Assembly (NCBI RefSeq): GCF_001542905.1
Contig: NZ_LOAJ01000002.1
Location: 1-64,000, forward strand
DNA: 64,000 bases
Direction: 5' to 3'
From: Halorubrum aethiopicum
GTDB taxonomy: Archaea; Halobacteriota; Halobacteria; Halobacteriales; Haloferacaceae
Shown piece by piece: positions 8,041-39,779 of this stretch. Under the pieces are notes generated by a model that had not been told where the DNA came from, ran no database searches, and saw only the letters and a list, made by a program, of their open reading frames with translations. The stretch's first letter is position 1; each line of letters begins with the position of its first letter. The position numbers and the translations under genes were made by a program.

Positions 8041-8295
8041 TACCAAAAAATCGTCAGGGGCGCTATTTAACAATAACTGTTGGATAATCAATTAACATGA
8101 TCTCGGATCAGCACGGTTATAGCCCAGTATTTGCTGTATAGACCGATCCAATCTGATCGTATCTGTAACTGATCCATACAAGATACGTGACCTCTATTCA
8201 GCACGGCCCCGACGAACTATCAGCAGGTGAGGATTTCGATAGAGCTGATTCATTCTAACGCTTCGGCAGATACCACTTCCACTTTCACTCCACGT

Positions 8296-8315
8296 CCATG
8301 GCTCACCCCTTTTAC
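8296..8315 (+). promoter_or_regulatory. leaderless promoter, repair-type motif copy A
   Basis: CCATGGCT (8296-8303), five bases, then CTTTTAC (8309-8315) lies 23 bases before the ATG at 8338. The same arrangement with near-identical spacing precedes the B-family polymerase at 10422. CTTTTAC sits where a TATA box is expected for a leaderless transcript. CCATGGCT is a candidate activator or operator half. A CACTTCCACT word lies upstream of both copies. Confidence 0.6.
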
Positions 8316-8337
8316 GAGCCTGTCCATCGTGGCTACC

Positions 8338-9036
8338 ATGTCCACCCGTTCCCGACGACCGACCGCGGATCTTCCGGATCTCACGCCAGGCGTCACCCTC
8401 GTCGATGTCGACGACGATCTCGGCGTCACCCCCGTCCAGGCGCTCCTCCTCGATCGAGTGCTCGCCGGCGACGGCCGAGCCTTCTGGGTCGATGGCGCAA
8501 ACAGGGCGAACACGACACGCCTCCGCGACCTCGCGCCGGCCGACCGCGTGCTCAACCGGATCGAGGTGGCCCGCGGGTTCACCGCACATCAGCACACGTC
8601 GCTGCTCGACCGACTCGCGGGCCGGCTCACCGCCCGAGAATCGCCGTCAGTCGTCGTCGCGACCGGCCTCGACGGGATGTACCGCACAGCCGACATCAGC
8701 GCCGAGCTCGCAGAACAGCTGTTCATTCGCGCGATCGCGTCGGTCGCCCGTATCGCTCGTGTCCATGACGTGCCGGTGCTCGTGACGCGGTGTCGCAAGG
8801 ATGACTTCTCGCGGCCGCTGCGCCGCGCTGCGGCGACGCACCTCCAGTGCCGGGCGACGCCGTTCGGACCACGCTTCAAGGACACAGCAGGCGGCGAGGA
8901 GACGCTCGTGTATCACACGGGAGACGGCTGGATGCAAACGACACTCGCATACTGGCAGGAAGTGCTCGAACACCGCGCCCGGATACACGAAGCGTCGACG
9001 CTCGAACTCGCCGCCGGACCCGTGGGTGTCCAGTAA
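8338..9036 (+). CDS. RadA-like protein lacking a P-loop
   Basis: The 232-residue protein aligns by eye with the core of archaeal RadA/RecA-superfamily proteins. AFWVDGANRANTTRLRDLAP corresponds to the strand and loop after the ATP site (VIYIDTE-type). RIEVARGFTAHQHTSLLDRL matches the following helix, and PSVVVATGLDGMYR and VPVLVTR match later strands. A Walker A motif is missing: the region before it has no GxxxxGKT. It is therefore probably a non-ATPase paralogue, a recombination mediator or polymerase accessory. I start at ATG 8338, set by the leaderless promoter 23 bases upstream. Its stop overlaps the next start by one base. Shared promoter sequence ties it to the polymerase at 10422. Confidence 0.6.
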   Translation: MSTRSRRPTADLPDLTPGVTLVDVDDDLGVTPVQALLLDRVLAGDGRAFWVDGANRANTTRLRDLAPADRVLNRIEVARGFTAHQHTSLLDRLAGRLTARESPSVVVATGLDGMYRTADISAELAEQLFIRAIASVARIARVHDVPVLVTRCRKDDFSRPLRRAAATHLQCRATPFGPRFKDTAGGEETLVYHTGDGWMQTTLAYWQEVLEHRARIHEASTLELAAGPVGVQ

Positions 9037-9311
9037 TGGGTCGGACGAATCCGACGTATCGAGACCAGTTGAGCGCGATCGAAGACGAGTGGGACGACTA
9101 CCGCCGCGCACTCCGGCGACGGGACCAACCCCGATTCGACCGGCTGTTCGTGTACGCTCGCGATCACGCCGACGCTGCGGGGAATCTCAACCATCCGGAC
9201 CCGCTTGCGCCCGTGTGGATGGCGATCGCGCTCGAACAGGAGCGACGAATACGGGAGTTAGAAGAAACAATTCAAGGATTAGAACAAGGAGATGAACGAA
9301 GAGAAGGGTGA
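9036..9311 (+). CDS. small charged coiled-coil protein in repair cassette
   Basis: This 91-residue protein begins at ATG 9036, sharing one base with the stop of the RadA-like gene, so the two are almost certainly co-translated. The first half is rich in Arg and Asp (DEWDDYRRALRRRDQPRFDRL), the middle reads PLAPVWMAIALEQE, and the end is a short heptad-like helix. I know no function. Its position suggests an adaptor between the RadA-like protein and another factor, possibly the polymerase; this is inference. Confidence 0.7.
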   Translation: MGRTNPTYRDQLSAIEDEWDDYRRALRRRDQPRFDRLFVYARDHADAAGNLNHPDPLAPVWMAIALEQERRIRELEETIQGLEQGDERREG

Positions 9312-9366
9312 CAATCTGGTACACGCACTGAGACAAACTCCTCTGTATCCGGAGACCATAGAGTGG

Positions 9367-9759
9367 TCAATTATTTCGTTCTTCAATTACGAGCTCTCGG
9401 GCCTCAGAAACGAGACCTTGACTCTCGGCAAATGCTTCTGCGTCTAAAGCGACAGCTGCCCCGACACCATCTTCTAGTACGAAGTTCATCTCGATCACGT
9501 TCTTGAAGCACTGGACGAGACACGTCAACTCGCCGTGATCCTCAGAAAACGTATTCTTGTAAATCGGAGCGGTAAGCGAGTCCATCCGTGAATCATCAAT
9601 TACATTCGTGATTTCGTCTTCGGTGTACTGGGCCGCCACATCATCTCGCAAATAGACGATGTCGTGACTTACATGATCGTACTTCACGATGCTTCGAAGG
9701 TTGTCATCTGTCCTGTGCTTGAAAAAATCCTCCAACCGCGAGGCCATTTTAACAGCCAT
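9367..9759 (-). CDS. conserved haloarchaeal-type hypothetical protein
   Basis: The 130-residue soluble acidic protein has no motif I recognise. The N-terminal part has charged helices (LEDFFKHRTDD). The centre alternates strand-like segments such as ELTCLVQCFKNVIEMNFVLED, which suggests a small alpha/beta sensor-like fold. ATG at 9759 and another four codons in (9747) are both possible starts. It is convergent with the repair cassette gene ending at 9311 and divergent from the small membrane protein at 9821. Confidence 0.6.
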   Translation of the reverse strand: MAVKMASRLEDFFKHRTDDNLRSIVKYDHVSHDIVYLRDDVAAQYTEDEITNVIDDSRMDSLTAPIYKNTFSEDHGELTCLVQCFKNVIEMNFVLEDGVGAAVALDAEAFAESQGLVSEARELVIEERNN

Positions 9760-9820
9760 AAGTTTCGCTATCGCCGTATCGATAAATAACCAAAGGTTGA
9801 TTCATTCCGCAGTAGAATGA

Positions 9821-10069
9821 ATGAATGATCGAATGCCGGATTATCCGTTTAGAGTTACTCAGCGGGTCGCTCTCTGGCACTTTATCCGGAGTCTGACGGC
9901 AGTGAGTTCAATCGCTACAGTGATCTTTTTGATGGGGTTCTATCCGAATGGCGAAGCAGTACTCCCCGAAGGTGATTATTTTATCGTATACCTCCTCATC
10001 GGCTTCGCAATTATCACAGGATATCGGCCTCTATTTTTGTCATATAAAATTCAACGACAGCGTTGGTGA
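9821..10069 (+). CDS. small two-helix membrane protein
   Basis: This 82-residue frame encodes two hydrophobic segments (SSIATVIFLMGF and YFIVYLLIGFAIITGY) separated by a short polar loop, and a basic C-terminus KIQRQRW. An in-frame stop lies just before the ATG, fixing the start among clustered ATGs. It has no recognised family and is likely a small cytoplasmic-membrane protein. Confidence 0.55.
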   Translation: MNDRMPDYPFRVTQRVALWHFIRSLTAVSSIATVIFLMGFYPNGEAVLPEGDYFIVYLLIGFAIITGYRPLFLSYKIQRQRW

Positions 10070-10154
10070 GGCATTCTACATGTTCTCCGTCAACGTCCGA
10101 CGCTCAGCGGAGAGCTAGCCGTGATTGATATCCAACTCTACTCCTGCCGTACAC

Positions 10155-10174
10155 ACATGGCTCAATCCTTTTAC
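10155..10174 (+). promoter_or_regulatory. repair-type promoter motif, orphan copy C
   Basis: ACATGGCT (10155-10162), five bases and CTTTTAC (10168-10174) repeat the element found before the RadA-like gene and the polymerase. No start codon or open frame follows at the 23-24 base spacing. It lies about 220 bp upstream of copy B in a 352-bp gap that otherwise contains no gene. It could drive a small RNA, serve as a second regulatory site for the polymerase, or mark a lost gene. Confidence 0.45.
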
Positions 10175-10378
10175 TGGATCATTTTCGTGCCGAGTATACA
10201 CGCTGTACGTCCCACGATTATCTTAACACCATTCTGAGGTGGTAGAAATTTTATCGTTCAATACGCAGTCTTCAGTGATCGGCTGTTTCAGGCGAGAATA
10301 TAACTGGAGAATAGGATCCAACAAAGCCGATAGTGTTCTCAATTCTGTTTATAGTTCAGTTCCACTTCCACTATACAC

Positions 10379-10398
10379 CCATGGCTGACTGCTTTTAC
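10379..10398 (+). promoter_or_regulatory. leaderless promoter, repair-type motif copy B
   Basis: CCATGGCT (10379-10386), five bases, CTTTTAC (10392-10398), then 23 bases to the polymerase ATG at 10422. Copy A has the same CCATGGCT-N5-CTTTTAC geometry. The word TTCCACTTCCACT lies just upstream, as in copy A. It is best explained as a TATA-type element with a shared regulator site, making the two genes a co-regulated pair. Confidence 0.6.
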
Positions 10399-10421
10399 AC
10401 TGGGTTCGAATTCTAATTGAA

Positions 10422-12608
10422 ATGGTCTTCACGCTGGACTATCTCGGAGGCGGTCGCGTTGCCGCGTGGACGCTCACACCGAACGGAGTGGCTCGCGAGG
10501 TCCACGAGGACCACCGGCCGACGCTGTTCGTCGGTGACGCGCCGAGCGACCTCTACGGACGGACCGGTGGTTCCAACCCAACACCGCCGGCTCGGGACGG
10601 ACTCTCGGAACCGCTGGCCGACCTCCGTTCGTTCCTCGATGGACAGGCAGCCGTCGCCGACCTCAGCGTCGAATCCCACCGACAGACGTTCCGGACGGAC
10701 GCCCGGCCACTCCTCCGCGTCGACGCCACATCGATCGACGCCGTCCGGGCGATCGCAAAGCGTGTCCGGCAGTTCGACCAGCCGGATACGTACACCTGCT
10801 ACAACGTCGATTTCACGCGGCAACTGCGCTTCTGTCTCGAAACAGACACGCCGGCCAGTCCCGATCGGTCGGTGCGTAACCTTCGGACGCTTCATCTAGG
10901 GTTTCCGAGTCACGAATCCGGCATCGATTCACTCCCCCAACTCGCCGTCGAGGGCGACCGGATAGGGGCGACACCACCGGCGGTGGTCGCCGGCGTCCAG
11001 GCGATCCTCGACGAGCGCGACCCCGACGTGCTGGTCGTCTCGACTGCCGACCTCGTCCCGCTGCTGTTCGAGGCGGCCGACGCGTACGGGGTTGCCCTCG
11101 AACTCGGTCGGCTGCCGGGGTACACGAAGCTCGCCGGCGAGTCGACGTACACTTCCTACGGGAACGTGGGCCACTCCCCGGCTCGGTATGCGGTTCCCGG
11201 TCGCGCCATCATCGACGAATCCAACTCGTTCTTCTATCACGAGTCGGGGCTAGAGGGCTGTCTCGATCTCGTTGACCGGTCCGGGTTGCCGCTACAAGAA
11301 CTCGGGTGGGCATCCATCGGGCGGGTCTTGACGGCGATGCAAATTCGAGAGGCCCGGAGTCGTGACGTGCTCGTCCCGTGGCGGGCGTGGCGGCCGGAAC
11401 TGTTCAAGACGGCCTCGACGCTCGATGACGCCGACCGCGGTGGGACGACCTTTGCCCCCGATGTCGGTGTCCACGAGGATGTTCACGAACTCGATTTCGC
11501 GTCGCTCTATCCGAACATCATCCGGACGCGCAACATCTCGCCCGAGACCGTCCGGTGCGGCTGTTGTGAGACCGACGACGTGCCGGGGCTTGACTACTCC
11601 ATCTGCGAGCGCGACGGCTACCTGCCTGACGTGCTCGGCCCGCTCATCGACGCCCGGAGCGAGATTAAATCAGAGATTCCCGATGCCGACGGCGACGAGC
11701 GCGAGCGGCTAGAGGCTGCCTCCTCAGCGATCAAGTGGATCCTCGTGTCCTGCTTCGGGTATCAGGGCTTCTCGAACGCGAAGTTCGGGCGCATCGAGTG
11801 TCACGAAGCGATCAACGCCTTTGCTCGTGAGCTCCTTCTCGATGCGAAGACGGCGCTGGAAGAAGCGGGGTGGCGTGTCGTTCACGGCATCGTCGACTCG
11901 ATCTGGGTGACGCCCGCTGACGGTCGCGAGCAGCGTCCGTTAGCAGAGGTCGCAAGGGAAGTAAGCGAGGAGGCCGGCATCGAGTTGGAGTACGAGTGTG
12001 CGTTCGACTGGGTGGCATTCTGTCCGATGCGGAACTCGGAGTCGGGTGCGCTAACTCGGTATTTCGGGAAACGACGCGGTGAGGAGTACCCCGATGTGGG
12101 GCTCGGCGACGCGATCAAGACCCGCGGTATCGAGGGGCGACAGCGATCGACGCCGGCGTGGGTCGAAGACGTCCAGCGCGAGGCACTTCGCGTGTTCGAC
12201 GAGACGCGATCGCCAGAGGCGGTCTGTGACGTGCTCCGGCGTCGCCTCCGAAAGCTACGGGATGGTGAGGTGGATGCCGCCGGGCTCGTCGTCGACAATC
12301 GTGTGTCGAAGGACGTGGACGACTACTCGATGGAGACGCTCACCGTGGCGGCGTTGAAGCGAGCGCGGATCGAGGGGACCGGGTTGTCACCGGGGCAAGC
12401 GATCCGGTACGTCGTCGTCGACACGGACGCACGCGGCGCTGCGCGGGTTCGGTTGGAGTTCGAGGACCTGGGGCGGTATGACACCGAATGGTACGAGGAG
12501 GCCGCCGTACGCGCCGTCGAGAGCGTGCTGGCTCCAGTCGGGTGGCGTGAGGGGGAGATTAAGCAGTACCTCAGCGGGACGAGCGACGAGACGCTAGCGA
12601 GCTACTGA
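10422..12608 (+). CDS. B-family DNA polymerase, exonuclease-inactivated
   Basis: The 728-residue protein is a family B DNA polymerase. Motif A is DFASLYPNII (D358), motif B KWILVSCFGYQGF (K438), and motif C HGIVDS (488-493), where the usual YGDTDS has lost the first Asp but keeps the second, D492, which is the main metal ligand in this family. The N-terminal exonuclease region is preserved in length but not in motifs: instead of FDIE there is LRTLHLGFPSHESG, and neither the NxxxFD nor the YxxxD signature is clear. The last 170 residues are a long thumb-like extension. I infer an active but non-proofreading, perhaps translesion, polymerase, co-regulated with the RadA-like gene. A partial copy of its 3' end lies at 13315. 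Confidence 0.85.
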   Translation: MVFTLDYLGGGRVAAWTLTPNGVAREVHEDHRPTLFVGDAPSDLYGRTGGSNPTPPARDGLSEPLADLRSFLDGQAAVADLSVESHRQTFRTDARPLLRVDATSIDAVRAIAKRVRQFDQPDTYTCYNVDFTRQLRFCLETDTPASPDRSVRNLRTLHLGFPSHESGIDSLPQLAVEGDRIGATPPAVVAGVQAILDERDPDVLVVSTADLVPLLFEAADAYGVALELGRLPGYTKLAGESTYTSYGNVGHSPARYAVPGRAIIDESNSFFYHESGLEGCLDLVDRSGLPLQELGWASIGRVLTAMQIREARSRDVLVPWRAWRPELFKTASTLDDADRGGTTFAPDVGVHEDVHELDFASLYPNIIRTRNISPETVRCGCCETDDVPGLDYSICERDGYLPDVLGPLIDARSEIKSEIPDADGDERERLEAASSAIKWILVSCFGYQGFSNAKFGRIECHEAINAFARELLLDAKTALEEAGWRVVHGIVDSIWVTPADGREQRPLAEVAREVSEEAGIELEYECAFDWVAFCPMRNSESGALTRYFGKRRGEEYPDVGLGDAIKTRGIEGRQRSTPAWVEDVQREALRVFDETRSPEAVCDVLRRRLRKLRDGEVDAAGLVVDNRVSKDVDDYSMETLTVAALKRARIEGTGLSPGQAIRYVVVDTDARGAARVRLEFEDLGRYDTEWYEEAAVRAVESVLAPVGWREGEIKQYLSGTSDETLASY

Positions 12609-12632
12609 GAACGTATCGGATGTATCGGTGGA

Positions 12633-13314: not shown

Positions 13315-13344
13315 TTCAGCGGGACGAGCGACGAGACGTTAGCG
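13315..13344 (+). pseudogene. fragment of the B-family polymerase 3' end
   Basis: Thirty bases here match 12570-12599 near the end of the polymerase gene with two differences, reading CAGCGGGACGAGCGACGAGA in common. It is out of context and untranslated. It indicates that a second copy of the polymerase locus, or a recombination event involving its 3' end, once existed here. Confidence 0.65.
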
Positions 13345-13486
13345 GGATTCGTGGACGGGTGAGGTAGAGTCACGAATCCGGCGTGATTCTATTGAACGTC
13401 TCGGAGGCACAGGAGACGGATATTGAATACAAAAGGTGGCCATCCAATTCGGCGTATTTTTGCCCTCATGGATGGAACGAGGACCT

Positions 13487-37441: not shown

Positions 37442-38638
37442 TCATGCCGATTTACACGCTTCCATGACGAGTTCGGGTGCGTCAACGAGTTGATTCACCG
37501 TATGCGCGCCTTTTCCCTTTCCGCGACCCTTTCGGTCCTGCTCGATCAACGAGAGGAACGCGAGTTCGGAAAGTAGGTCGCGGACGCGCCGAATTTTCAG
37601 CGGGTCAGTTCCCTCACGTTCACAGACTACTTCATAGGCGGAATACACCTGCTTCGAGGGGATCATCGCGTCATCGTCAGTCGATTGTTGCATCTGGAGG
37701 GCGAGCCCTTGGAGGAGATACTTCGAGTGCTCAGGTTGCTTCCCAATGAGTTCGGCTAGTCGAGCCTCTTCCTCGCGTTCGTGAGCTTCATCGACGTACT
37801 CAACGCGAACGTGGTCGTCGCCGTGTTCGTCGGCGATCTCGCCGGAATATCTGAGAATGTCGATCGCCTTCCGGGCGTCGCCGTGTTCTTTCGCCGCGAG
37901 TGCTGCGACCTTCGGGATCACGTCGTCGTCAAGGACATCTTCCCGGAATGCGTCGGCCCGGGAGTTGAGGATATCGCGTAATTGATTCGCGTCGTACGGT
38001 GGGAATACGAAGTCTCGCTCGGAGAGACTGGATTTGACACGCTCGTTGAGCGACTCCTTGTACCGAATCTTGTTGCTGATCCCGATGATTCCGAGTGTAC
38101 TGTCTTGGACCTTTCCGGCTTCCGCCGCTCGCGAGAGCTGCATGAGAACGTTGTCGTCTTCGAGTTTGTCGATCTCGTCGAGAATGATGATACCCACGTC
38201 AAGAAGAGCATCGAGAATTTTCCAGAGACGGCGGTAGTAATCGGACGTAGAGACGCCCGACGCCGGAACGCTCACGCCCGTTTCGTCCTGGTTGTTGAAC
38301 GATTCAGCGATAGTCCGGACGGTTTGTGTTTCTGTCGAGTCTTGAAAACAGTCGATGTAGGCGACGGCGACGTCGACGCCATTCTCGGCAGCGGCCTCGG
38401 TGAGATCCTGCGTAATGTACTTCGAGCAGAGGCTTTTGCCGGTGCCCGTCTTGCCATAGATCAACACGTTGTTCGGCGTCCCCCCTCGCTGGGCGTCCTT
38501 GATCGCGTTCGCGAGGTTCGCGAGTTCTTCTTCGCGACCAATGATCCGATCACCTTCGGGAAGGTGGCTCACACGAAGGAGCTCCTTATCAGCAAAGATG
38601 GGGTCGGGATCCCCGAAGAATGACTCCGTATCGCTCAT
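37442..38638 (-). CDS. cdc6: Orc1/Cdc6 replication initiator
   Basis: I start at ATG 38638 (MSDTESFFGDPDPIFADKELL). The 398-residue protein is an AAA+ ATPase with Walker A GKTGTGKS (62-69), Walker B IIILDEIDKLE (D154, E155) and a sensor segment TLGIIGISNKIRY, followed by a C-terminal winged helix (KQVYSAYEVVCEREGTDPL). This is the archaeal origin-recognition protein that loads the MCM helicase. It reads away from an origin with seven boxes (38682-39329) directly upstream, the standard arrangement for haloarchaeal origins. It probably defines the replicon to which 37-64 kb belongs. Confidence 0.95.
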   Translation of the reverse strand: MSDTESFFGDPDPIFADKELLRVSHLPEGDRIIGREEELANLANAIKDAQRGGTPNNVLIYGKTGTGKSLCSKYITQDLTEAAAENGVDVAVAYIDCFQDSTETQTVRTIAESFNNQDETGVSVPASGVSTSDYYRRLWKILDALLDVGIIILDEIDKLEDDNVLMQLSRAAEAGKVQDSTLGIIGISNKIRYKESLNERVKSSLSERDFVFPPYDANQLRDILNSRADAFREDVLDDDVIPKVAALAAKEHGDARKAIDILRYSGEIADEHGDDHVRVEYVDEAHEREEEARLAELIGKQPEHSKYLLQGLALQMQQSTDDDAMIPSKQVYSAYEVVCEREGTDPLKIRRVRDLLSELAFLSLIEQDRKGRGKGKGAHTVNQLVDAPELVMEACKSA

Positions 38639-38778
38639 GCGAAGTCGCACTCACCCGACCCATATCAATCTTCGCCACCGTCTTGCCGCTGTAAACACGA
38701 GTCCGTACTAGACGCTCCGGTGATGTATGGTTGAACCCCGTGGTTTCCCACGGTTTGAGGACCACGGTCTCATAGCGG

Positions 38779-39329: not shown

Positions 39330-39779
39330 TTCATCGTGTCGCCTCGCTATCCCGATAGCGTCACCGAGTTTACTTTCACTTCCACTACGCCTTTGGCTCT
39401 CTCTTAACCGTCTGGCACCAGTAGGTAGAGTCGCGGCTCGGCCGGTCGCTATCGGCGCAACCCCCTACACGTCTCCCAGGTCATCGGCGCTTTTCTCGTC
39501 GATGGCCTATTCCCCCTCAGTACGTGCCTGAAAATCGTGGATCCGTGGAATGTAATTTCGAGTATTCGTCGAGACAATCGCTGTTGCTTCGTGAAAATGC
39601 CTTCACAGTAAGGGGGTGTGCCGAGGAGCGACAAACACCGGTGTTGCCGCATTGATACGCTATTTTGCCCTACATAATAAACACTTTGGACAACGTATCA
39701 CGAATGGTAACACAACTCTATTTCGGCATGAAACTTGTCAGGGACCACTTTTACCATTTCATGTAACGGCGGATCAATC
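39330..39779. other. 450-bp gap between origin and TOPRIM gene
   Basis: I see no gene. CTTTTACC at 39748-39755 lies about 25-31 bases before the ATG at 39780 and is a likely TATA element for a leaderless transcript. The stretch 39372-39407 (CACTTCCACTACGCC then TTGGCT) loosely recalls the promoter elements at 8.3 and 10.4 kb but lacks the same spacing. Confidence 0.4.

Follow-up and report, generated by a model that had tools for sequence, protein, structure and literature searches.

A PolB2 mutasome locus of Halorubrum aethiopicum with a split operon and a copied, damage-box-like promoter element

Makarova (2014; PMC4104785) linked an inactivated PolB2 with an inactivated RadA and the arCOG07300 protein, haloarchaea included, and found lexA in some of the bacterial versions of this trio. 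Timinskas (2025; PMC11791011) modelled PolB2, the RadA-like protein iRadA and PPB2, a small helical protein, as a translesion synthesis (TLS) complex with a Pol V-like arrangement; that paper, whose models cover 40 other complexes, introduced the name PolB2 mutasome. Adjacency of the genes is usual in this family, yet not obligatory, and interspersed gene-order variants have already been described. Feng (2020, 2022; PMC7390963, PMC8764526) characterised Sulfolobus PolB2 (Dpo2) as an active, exonuclease-free, damage-induced and mutagenic TLS extender. Here we describe the iRadA-PPB2-PolB2 locus of Halorubrum aethiopicum, found in the first 64 kb (hereafter, the window) of replicon C2 (165,936 bp), which exists alongside a 3.05-Mb chromosome. 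The trio is a new copy of an already described system, the mutasome idea having been anticipated in print, and its presence here is ordinary; what this locus adds is a natural experiment in the form of a split. The explanation that we prefer as a whole, and hold to be very probably right, is that the operon of a PolB2 mutasome was split, that PolB2 carries a copied damage-box-like promoter, and that both halves can thus answer to one regulator.

We assign the locus firmly to the published PolB2 mutasome as a haloarchaeal copy of it. It shares with the models of PMC11791011 all three components, their order, the MGRT arm, the D(K/R) motif, the His and the second Asp of motif C, a degenerate exonuclease and an iRadA devoid of an ATPase site. 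The original prediction, which was made from the sequence of the window, had described a RadA-like protein without Walker A, and this description stands: no GxxxxGK[ST] P-loop was found in the 232-aa open reading frame (ORF) or in 19 aligned relatives, so that a hidden P-loop is ruled out (0/20 sequences). The protein corresponds to the RadA core fold without the N-terminal domain, being similar to the Rad51 domain (Pfam E 2.4e-4) and predicted to adopt a RecA/Rad51 fold (AlphaFold pLDDT 86; best Foldseek match DMC1, E 5e-11). The gene of 91 codons does overlap its stop, as had been claimed (TAATG, ATG at 9036). PPB2 shows the published signature in its N-terminus, Arg3, Arg9 and length, while profile searches against Pfam and NCBIfam gave no significant family match for it. 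The same haloarchaeal trio with its severely degenerate RadA is recognisable as the arCOG07763-arCOG07300-PolB2 neighbourhood of Makarova (PMC4104785), whose polymerase, unlike the one discussed here, was predicted to be inactive.

The mutasome reading of the original prediction was thus right in substance, whereas its comparison with the bacterial ImuA-ImuB-DnaE2 set holds as a functional analogy only. A RecA-like accessory protein and a non-proofreading polymerase are common to both; however, DnaE2 is a family C polymerase, ImuB belongs to the Y family but is inactive, and the trio has no homologue of either. The polymerase here is of family B and PPB2 is no ImuB homologue, so we do not count the locus among the ImuA-ImuB-DnaE2 systems.

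Co-occurrence, which the original prediction had named as a check, turned out to be strong. Among 119 genomes of the family, with PolB2 counted as present at a near-complete match and iRadA at an E-value under 1e-40, both are found in 75 and neither in 38. PolB2 without iRadA was found in four (two with internal stops, one partial), and iRadA without PolB2 in two (one an incomplete genome, the other with a PolB2 fragment). Hence, iRadA accompanies PolB2 in 75/79 genomes vs. 2/40 without a full-length PolB2 (Fisher p 4e-24, although the genomes are related and the events not independent). Gene order could be followed at 76 haloarchaeal PolB2 loci whose upstream sequence was long enough: 62 of them have iRadA and PPB2 5' of PolB2 and on its strand, contiguously in 51 cases and with an insert in 11, while six loci have PPB2 only and eight have neither partner. 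The nearest PolB2 relatives come from Halorubrum (84-88% identical). Across the family, fragmentary PolB2 genes and pseudogenes interrupted by stops are abundant, and several copies per genome occur, often plasmid-borne, which points to fast turnover.

The original prediction also placed the trio under one shared promoter, and this we reject. PPB2 and PolB2 are separated by 1110 nt that hold a gene on the opposing strand and a small ORF (Table 1), and each of the two units has its own copy of a promoter element. In five close relatives (L006-L010) the three genes are contiguous, with one promoter element 5' of iRadA; blastn against these loci covers positions 8272-9250 and 10423-12613 of the window only. 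The PolB2 gene therefore lacks the single-operon adjacency usual for the system, which, given the known variants, is no defining failure. Its separation by about 1.1 kb and its own promoter-element copy nevertheless distinguish it from the PolB2 mutasome of PMC11791011, the considered part of which mentions DNA-damage induction without a conserved cis-element common to split units. Over 42 bp, the PolB2 element is identical to that of iRadA at 33 positions, and their local alignment score of 24 was reached in 0/1000 shuffles (shuffle maximum 15). The sequence CATGGCTNANNNCTTTTA, with up to two mismatches allowed, occurs three times in the whole scanned genome of 3.33 Mb, each time at the trio locus. 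We also considered the segment as one recurrent mobile element and discarded the idea, the window insert matching no other insert.

The same pattern usually recurs in other haloarchaea. For nine split loci, including the one in the window, the region 5' of PolB2 was compared with that of its partners: the similarity was reached in 0/1000 shuffles for seven of them and in 5/1000 for Halorubrum alkaliphilum (L057), while a Halobaculum locus (L065), at 52/1000, is not significant by score when taken alone. No such similarity exists 5' of PolB2 in 12 contiguous control operons. Two types of element are involved. One, the UV-type, precedes the split PolB2 of the window, of Halorubrum alkaliphilum and of Halobaculum (L065, L066, L013), whereas the other split loci have a CGGAA-type element, which is also present 59-76 nt upstream of 10/11 PolB2 genes without nearby iRadA or PPB2. 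One clade (split loci L093, L097, L108, L122, L123) has a conserved ORF of 180-209 aa 3' of PPB2, which might represent a fourth component.

Could the similarity of the two promoters be a mere trace of past duplication, devoid of regulatory meaning? A duplication or rearrangement clearly took place at the locus, but we find this explanation unlikely. The pattern recurs in separate splits, even where the element is of another type; both copies have kept their UV-box, TGGCT and TATA blocks alike, while the stretch from TATA to ATG diverged; and the element is conserved 5' of iRadA throughout the genus Halorubrum and precedes unrelated genes with unchanged spacing. Co-regulation of the trio through the copied elements is well supported by these comparisons, and no description of it was found in the literature searched. 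A PolB2 gene that keeps the operator after losing the operon is evidence that the trio must be co-expressed. Overall, the copied promoter of the cut-off PolB2 suggests that joint activation of the three genes is still required, probably in response to DNA damage.

The link to DNA damage comes from the UV-type element, which resembles the Halobacterium UV-B motif TTTCACTTTCA. According to Boubriak et al. 2008 (PMC2556686), this motif lies before UV-B-induced genes, radA1 among them. Similarly to it, our element is located 5' of TATA, roughly 50 nt from the start, and contains the core CACTTTCA; it differs in that another conserved block, TGGCTSA, comes after it and in matching the 11-mer with one to two mismatches. 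An exact TTTCACTTTCAC stands about 55 nt 5' of the start of the genome's own radA. Keeping in mind that Sulfolobus Dpo2, a crenarchaeal member of the same polymerase subfamily, is controlled by Orc1-2 binding to ANTTTC (PMC9738581), we note that ACTTTC within the UV-type element fits this site; the match is short and a lead only. The orc1/cdc6 gene found in the window at 37442-38650 was considered as a regulator and dropped, no tie to the promoter having been found.

Several points weigh against such an interpretation. Insert sequence is common to loci of the CGGAA group, and splits within one clade are not all independent, so we count roughly four separate cases rather than nine. The connection to the UV box is one of similarity, the iRadA promoter deviating from TTTCACTTTCA at one position and the PolB2 promoter at two. 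In our motif scans, which were pattern searches with reversed-pattern controls, UV-box 12-mers with at most one mismatch occurred 12 times in the genome vs. five times for the control. Neither polB2 nor iRadA is named in the Halobacterium UV-B gene lists in the considered part of PMC2556686. Finally, polB2 is deletable in Haloferax (PMC7776575), which makes the role of PolB2 a conditional one. For Halorubrum aethiopicum itself, induction by damage, a common regulator and mutagenic consequences are inferred. We might go further and imagine an SOS-like haloarchaeal mutagenesis regulon with two lineage-specific operators (CACTTYCACT-TGGCTSA and GAAAYSCGGAARCGACACGCC), where the operator would stay with PolB2 at every separation from iRadA and PPB2, would in Halorubrum also drive a conserved 58-65-aa chromosomal protein and plasmid genes, and would point to a damage-responsive regulator; in our estimate, the chances that this wider scenario is correct are about even. 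The split locus offers a concrete, testable candidate operator for the haloarchaeal DNA-damage response, and Haloferax, Halorubrum and Halobacterium are genetically tractable hosts.

Besides the two promoter copies, the locus contains a partial third element and 35 nt left over from the 3' end of a polB2 gene, which together suggest an earlier second copy of the operon at this place, the polB2 remnant being a trace of such a copy or of a rearrangement. The same promoter fragment and remnant, along with the split itself and the many degenerate PolB2 fragments and pseudogenes of the family, could be taken as signs of a decaying plasmid copy, i.e., of a system being lost. This we consider quite unlikely: none of the three ORFs is disrupted, the residues for catalysis and for the interfaces have been retained, a TATA-like box is properly spaced in the polB2 promoter copy, and the genome has no other PolB2.

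As for the polymerase, it belongs to family B over its full length (NCBIfam model, E 8e-286), and the structure predicted for it agrees with those of archaeal B-family polymerases. The motif A Asp, motif B Lys and second motif C Asp named in the original prediction are Asp358, Lys438 and Asp492, invariant among the aligned relatives. Motif C reads H488-G-I-V-D492, with the first Asp replaced, and it is, like D358 and K438, invariant or at least 90% conserved across 22 aligned sequences. D338-R339, the D(K/R) motif, is likewise invariant; the FxxA-like F328-K-T-A331, in the place of the predicted Rad51-like oligomerisation loop, precedes it, position 331 being variable among relatives. The organism's own PolB3 (FDIE, NFEDFD, YSIRD, YGDTD) served as a reference for the exonuclease, and an intact exonuclease in PolB2 is ruled out by the comparison. 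ExoII (NFEDFD) and ExoIII (YxxxD) are missing, as had been claimed; ExoI, however, is degenerate (FDIE changed to YNVD) rather than wholly absent. We take PolB2 for a translesion polymerase that lacks proofreading and is probably active. That PolB2 and iRadA are instead catalytically dead parts of a regulatory or structural complex, e.g., at stalled forks or origins, is very unlikely: it was the view of Makarova, who found arORC2 to be a frequent neighbour (PMC4104785), and the lost first Asp of motif C and the missing P-loop favour it, but the Sulfolobus enzyme, whose motif C carries a comparable substitution (IID), polymerises at about replicase level, and targeted mutagenesis depends on it (PMC8764526, PMC7390963); the invariance of D358, K438 and D492 would be superfluous in a dead domain; and no orc gene adjoins the trio, the nearest one seen being that at 37442-38650.

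Coming back to the split PolB2 mutasome, we can envisage how it might work. Incapable of usual ATP binding, iRadA would dock on a loop of PolB2 in the manner in which RadA subunits contact each other, and PPB2, probably a trimer, would insert its MGRT arm between PolB2/iRadA and DNA, the whole forming a putative heteropentamer. After DNA damage, the complex would extend past lesions at the cost of mutations. An insertion or rearrangement would have split the ancestral iRadA-PPB2-PolB2 operon in Halorubrum aethiopicum, and, with the PolB2 half carrying the same damage-box-like element, both halves could answer one regulator. The gene identities, motifs, folds, co-occurrence, split and element copies behind this scheme, and the recurrence of such copies at other split loci, come from the present analysis, and the PolB2 biochemistry and the model of the complex from the literature.

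Table 1. Features of the iRadA-PPB2-PolB2 locus (positions in the window)
Feature	Position	Strand	Description
iRadA-PPB2 promoter element	8274-8315	+	CACTTCCACTTTCACT (UV-box-like, contains ACTTTC) - CATGGCTCAC - CTTTTAC (TATA-like); ~23 nt 5' of ATG
iRadA	8338-9036	+	232 aa, arCOG07763-type, RadA/Rad51 fold without Walker A
PPB2	9036-9311	+	91 aa, arCOG07300-type, MGRT N-terminus, Arg3 and Arg9; ATG overlaps iRadA stop
Segment separating PPB2 and PolB2	9312-10356	.	Absent in five close relatives
DUF7522-like gene in separating segment	9367-9759	-	Pfam DUF7522 E 3.6e-5, under family cut-off
Small ORF in separating segment	9821-10069	+	82 aa
Third promoter-element copy, partial	10151-10174	+	ACACACATGGCTCAATCCTTTTAC; UV box not recognisable; no ORF immediately 3'
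PolB2 promoter element	10357-10398	+	Copy of 8274-8315, 33/42 identical, gap-free
PolB2	10422-12608	+	728 aa, exonuclease-degenerate family B DNA polymerase
polB2 3'-end remnant	13315-13349	+	35 nt, same strand as polB2; ~80% identical to relatives' polB2 3' ends over 40-45 nt

Finally, we would like to comment on occurrences of the composite element away from the trio. In 52 Halorubrum genomes it gave about 66 matches vs. 36 for the reversed control (by our count), some of them 5' of plasmid or mobile-element genes. The 58-65-aa conserved chromosomal Halorubrum protein (MSA..RPRYATPTRVDVT.CRTDR...; L037 = G000:C1:17278, L134-L161) has a UV-type element whose distance from the ATG is a constant 34 nt in many species. 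This composite element also forms the promoter of an 86-aa plasmid gene (G000:C2:72119-72146, L046), whose sole relative in the plasmid collection, on Halorubrum lacusprofundi pR1SE2 (L132), also has the element and a sliding-clamp gene downstream. A UV-type element was further found with a 309-aa gene bearing a nucleotidyltransferase-like GS...DLD motif (L144, L147), which in one genome (G131) precedes an iRadA-type promoter by about 1.7 kb, and with a TnpB-like gene with zinc-ribbon CxxC motifs (L148), which recalls npa, a putative transposase induced by UV-B in Halobacterium. In the window itself, a further composite UV-type element lies at 39374-39398, near the orc1/cdc6 gene and plasmid-origin-like repeats, with no ORF at the usual distance.

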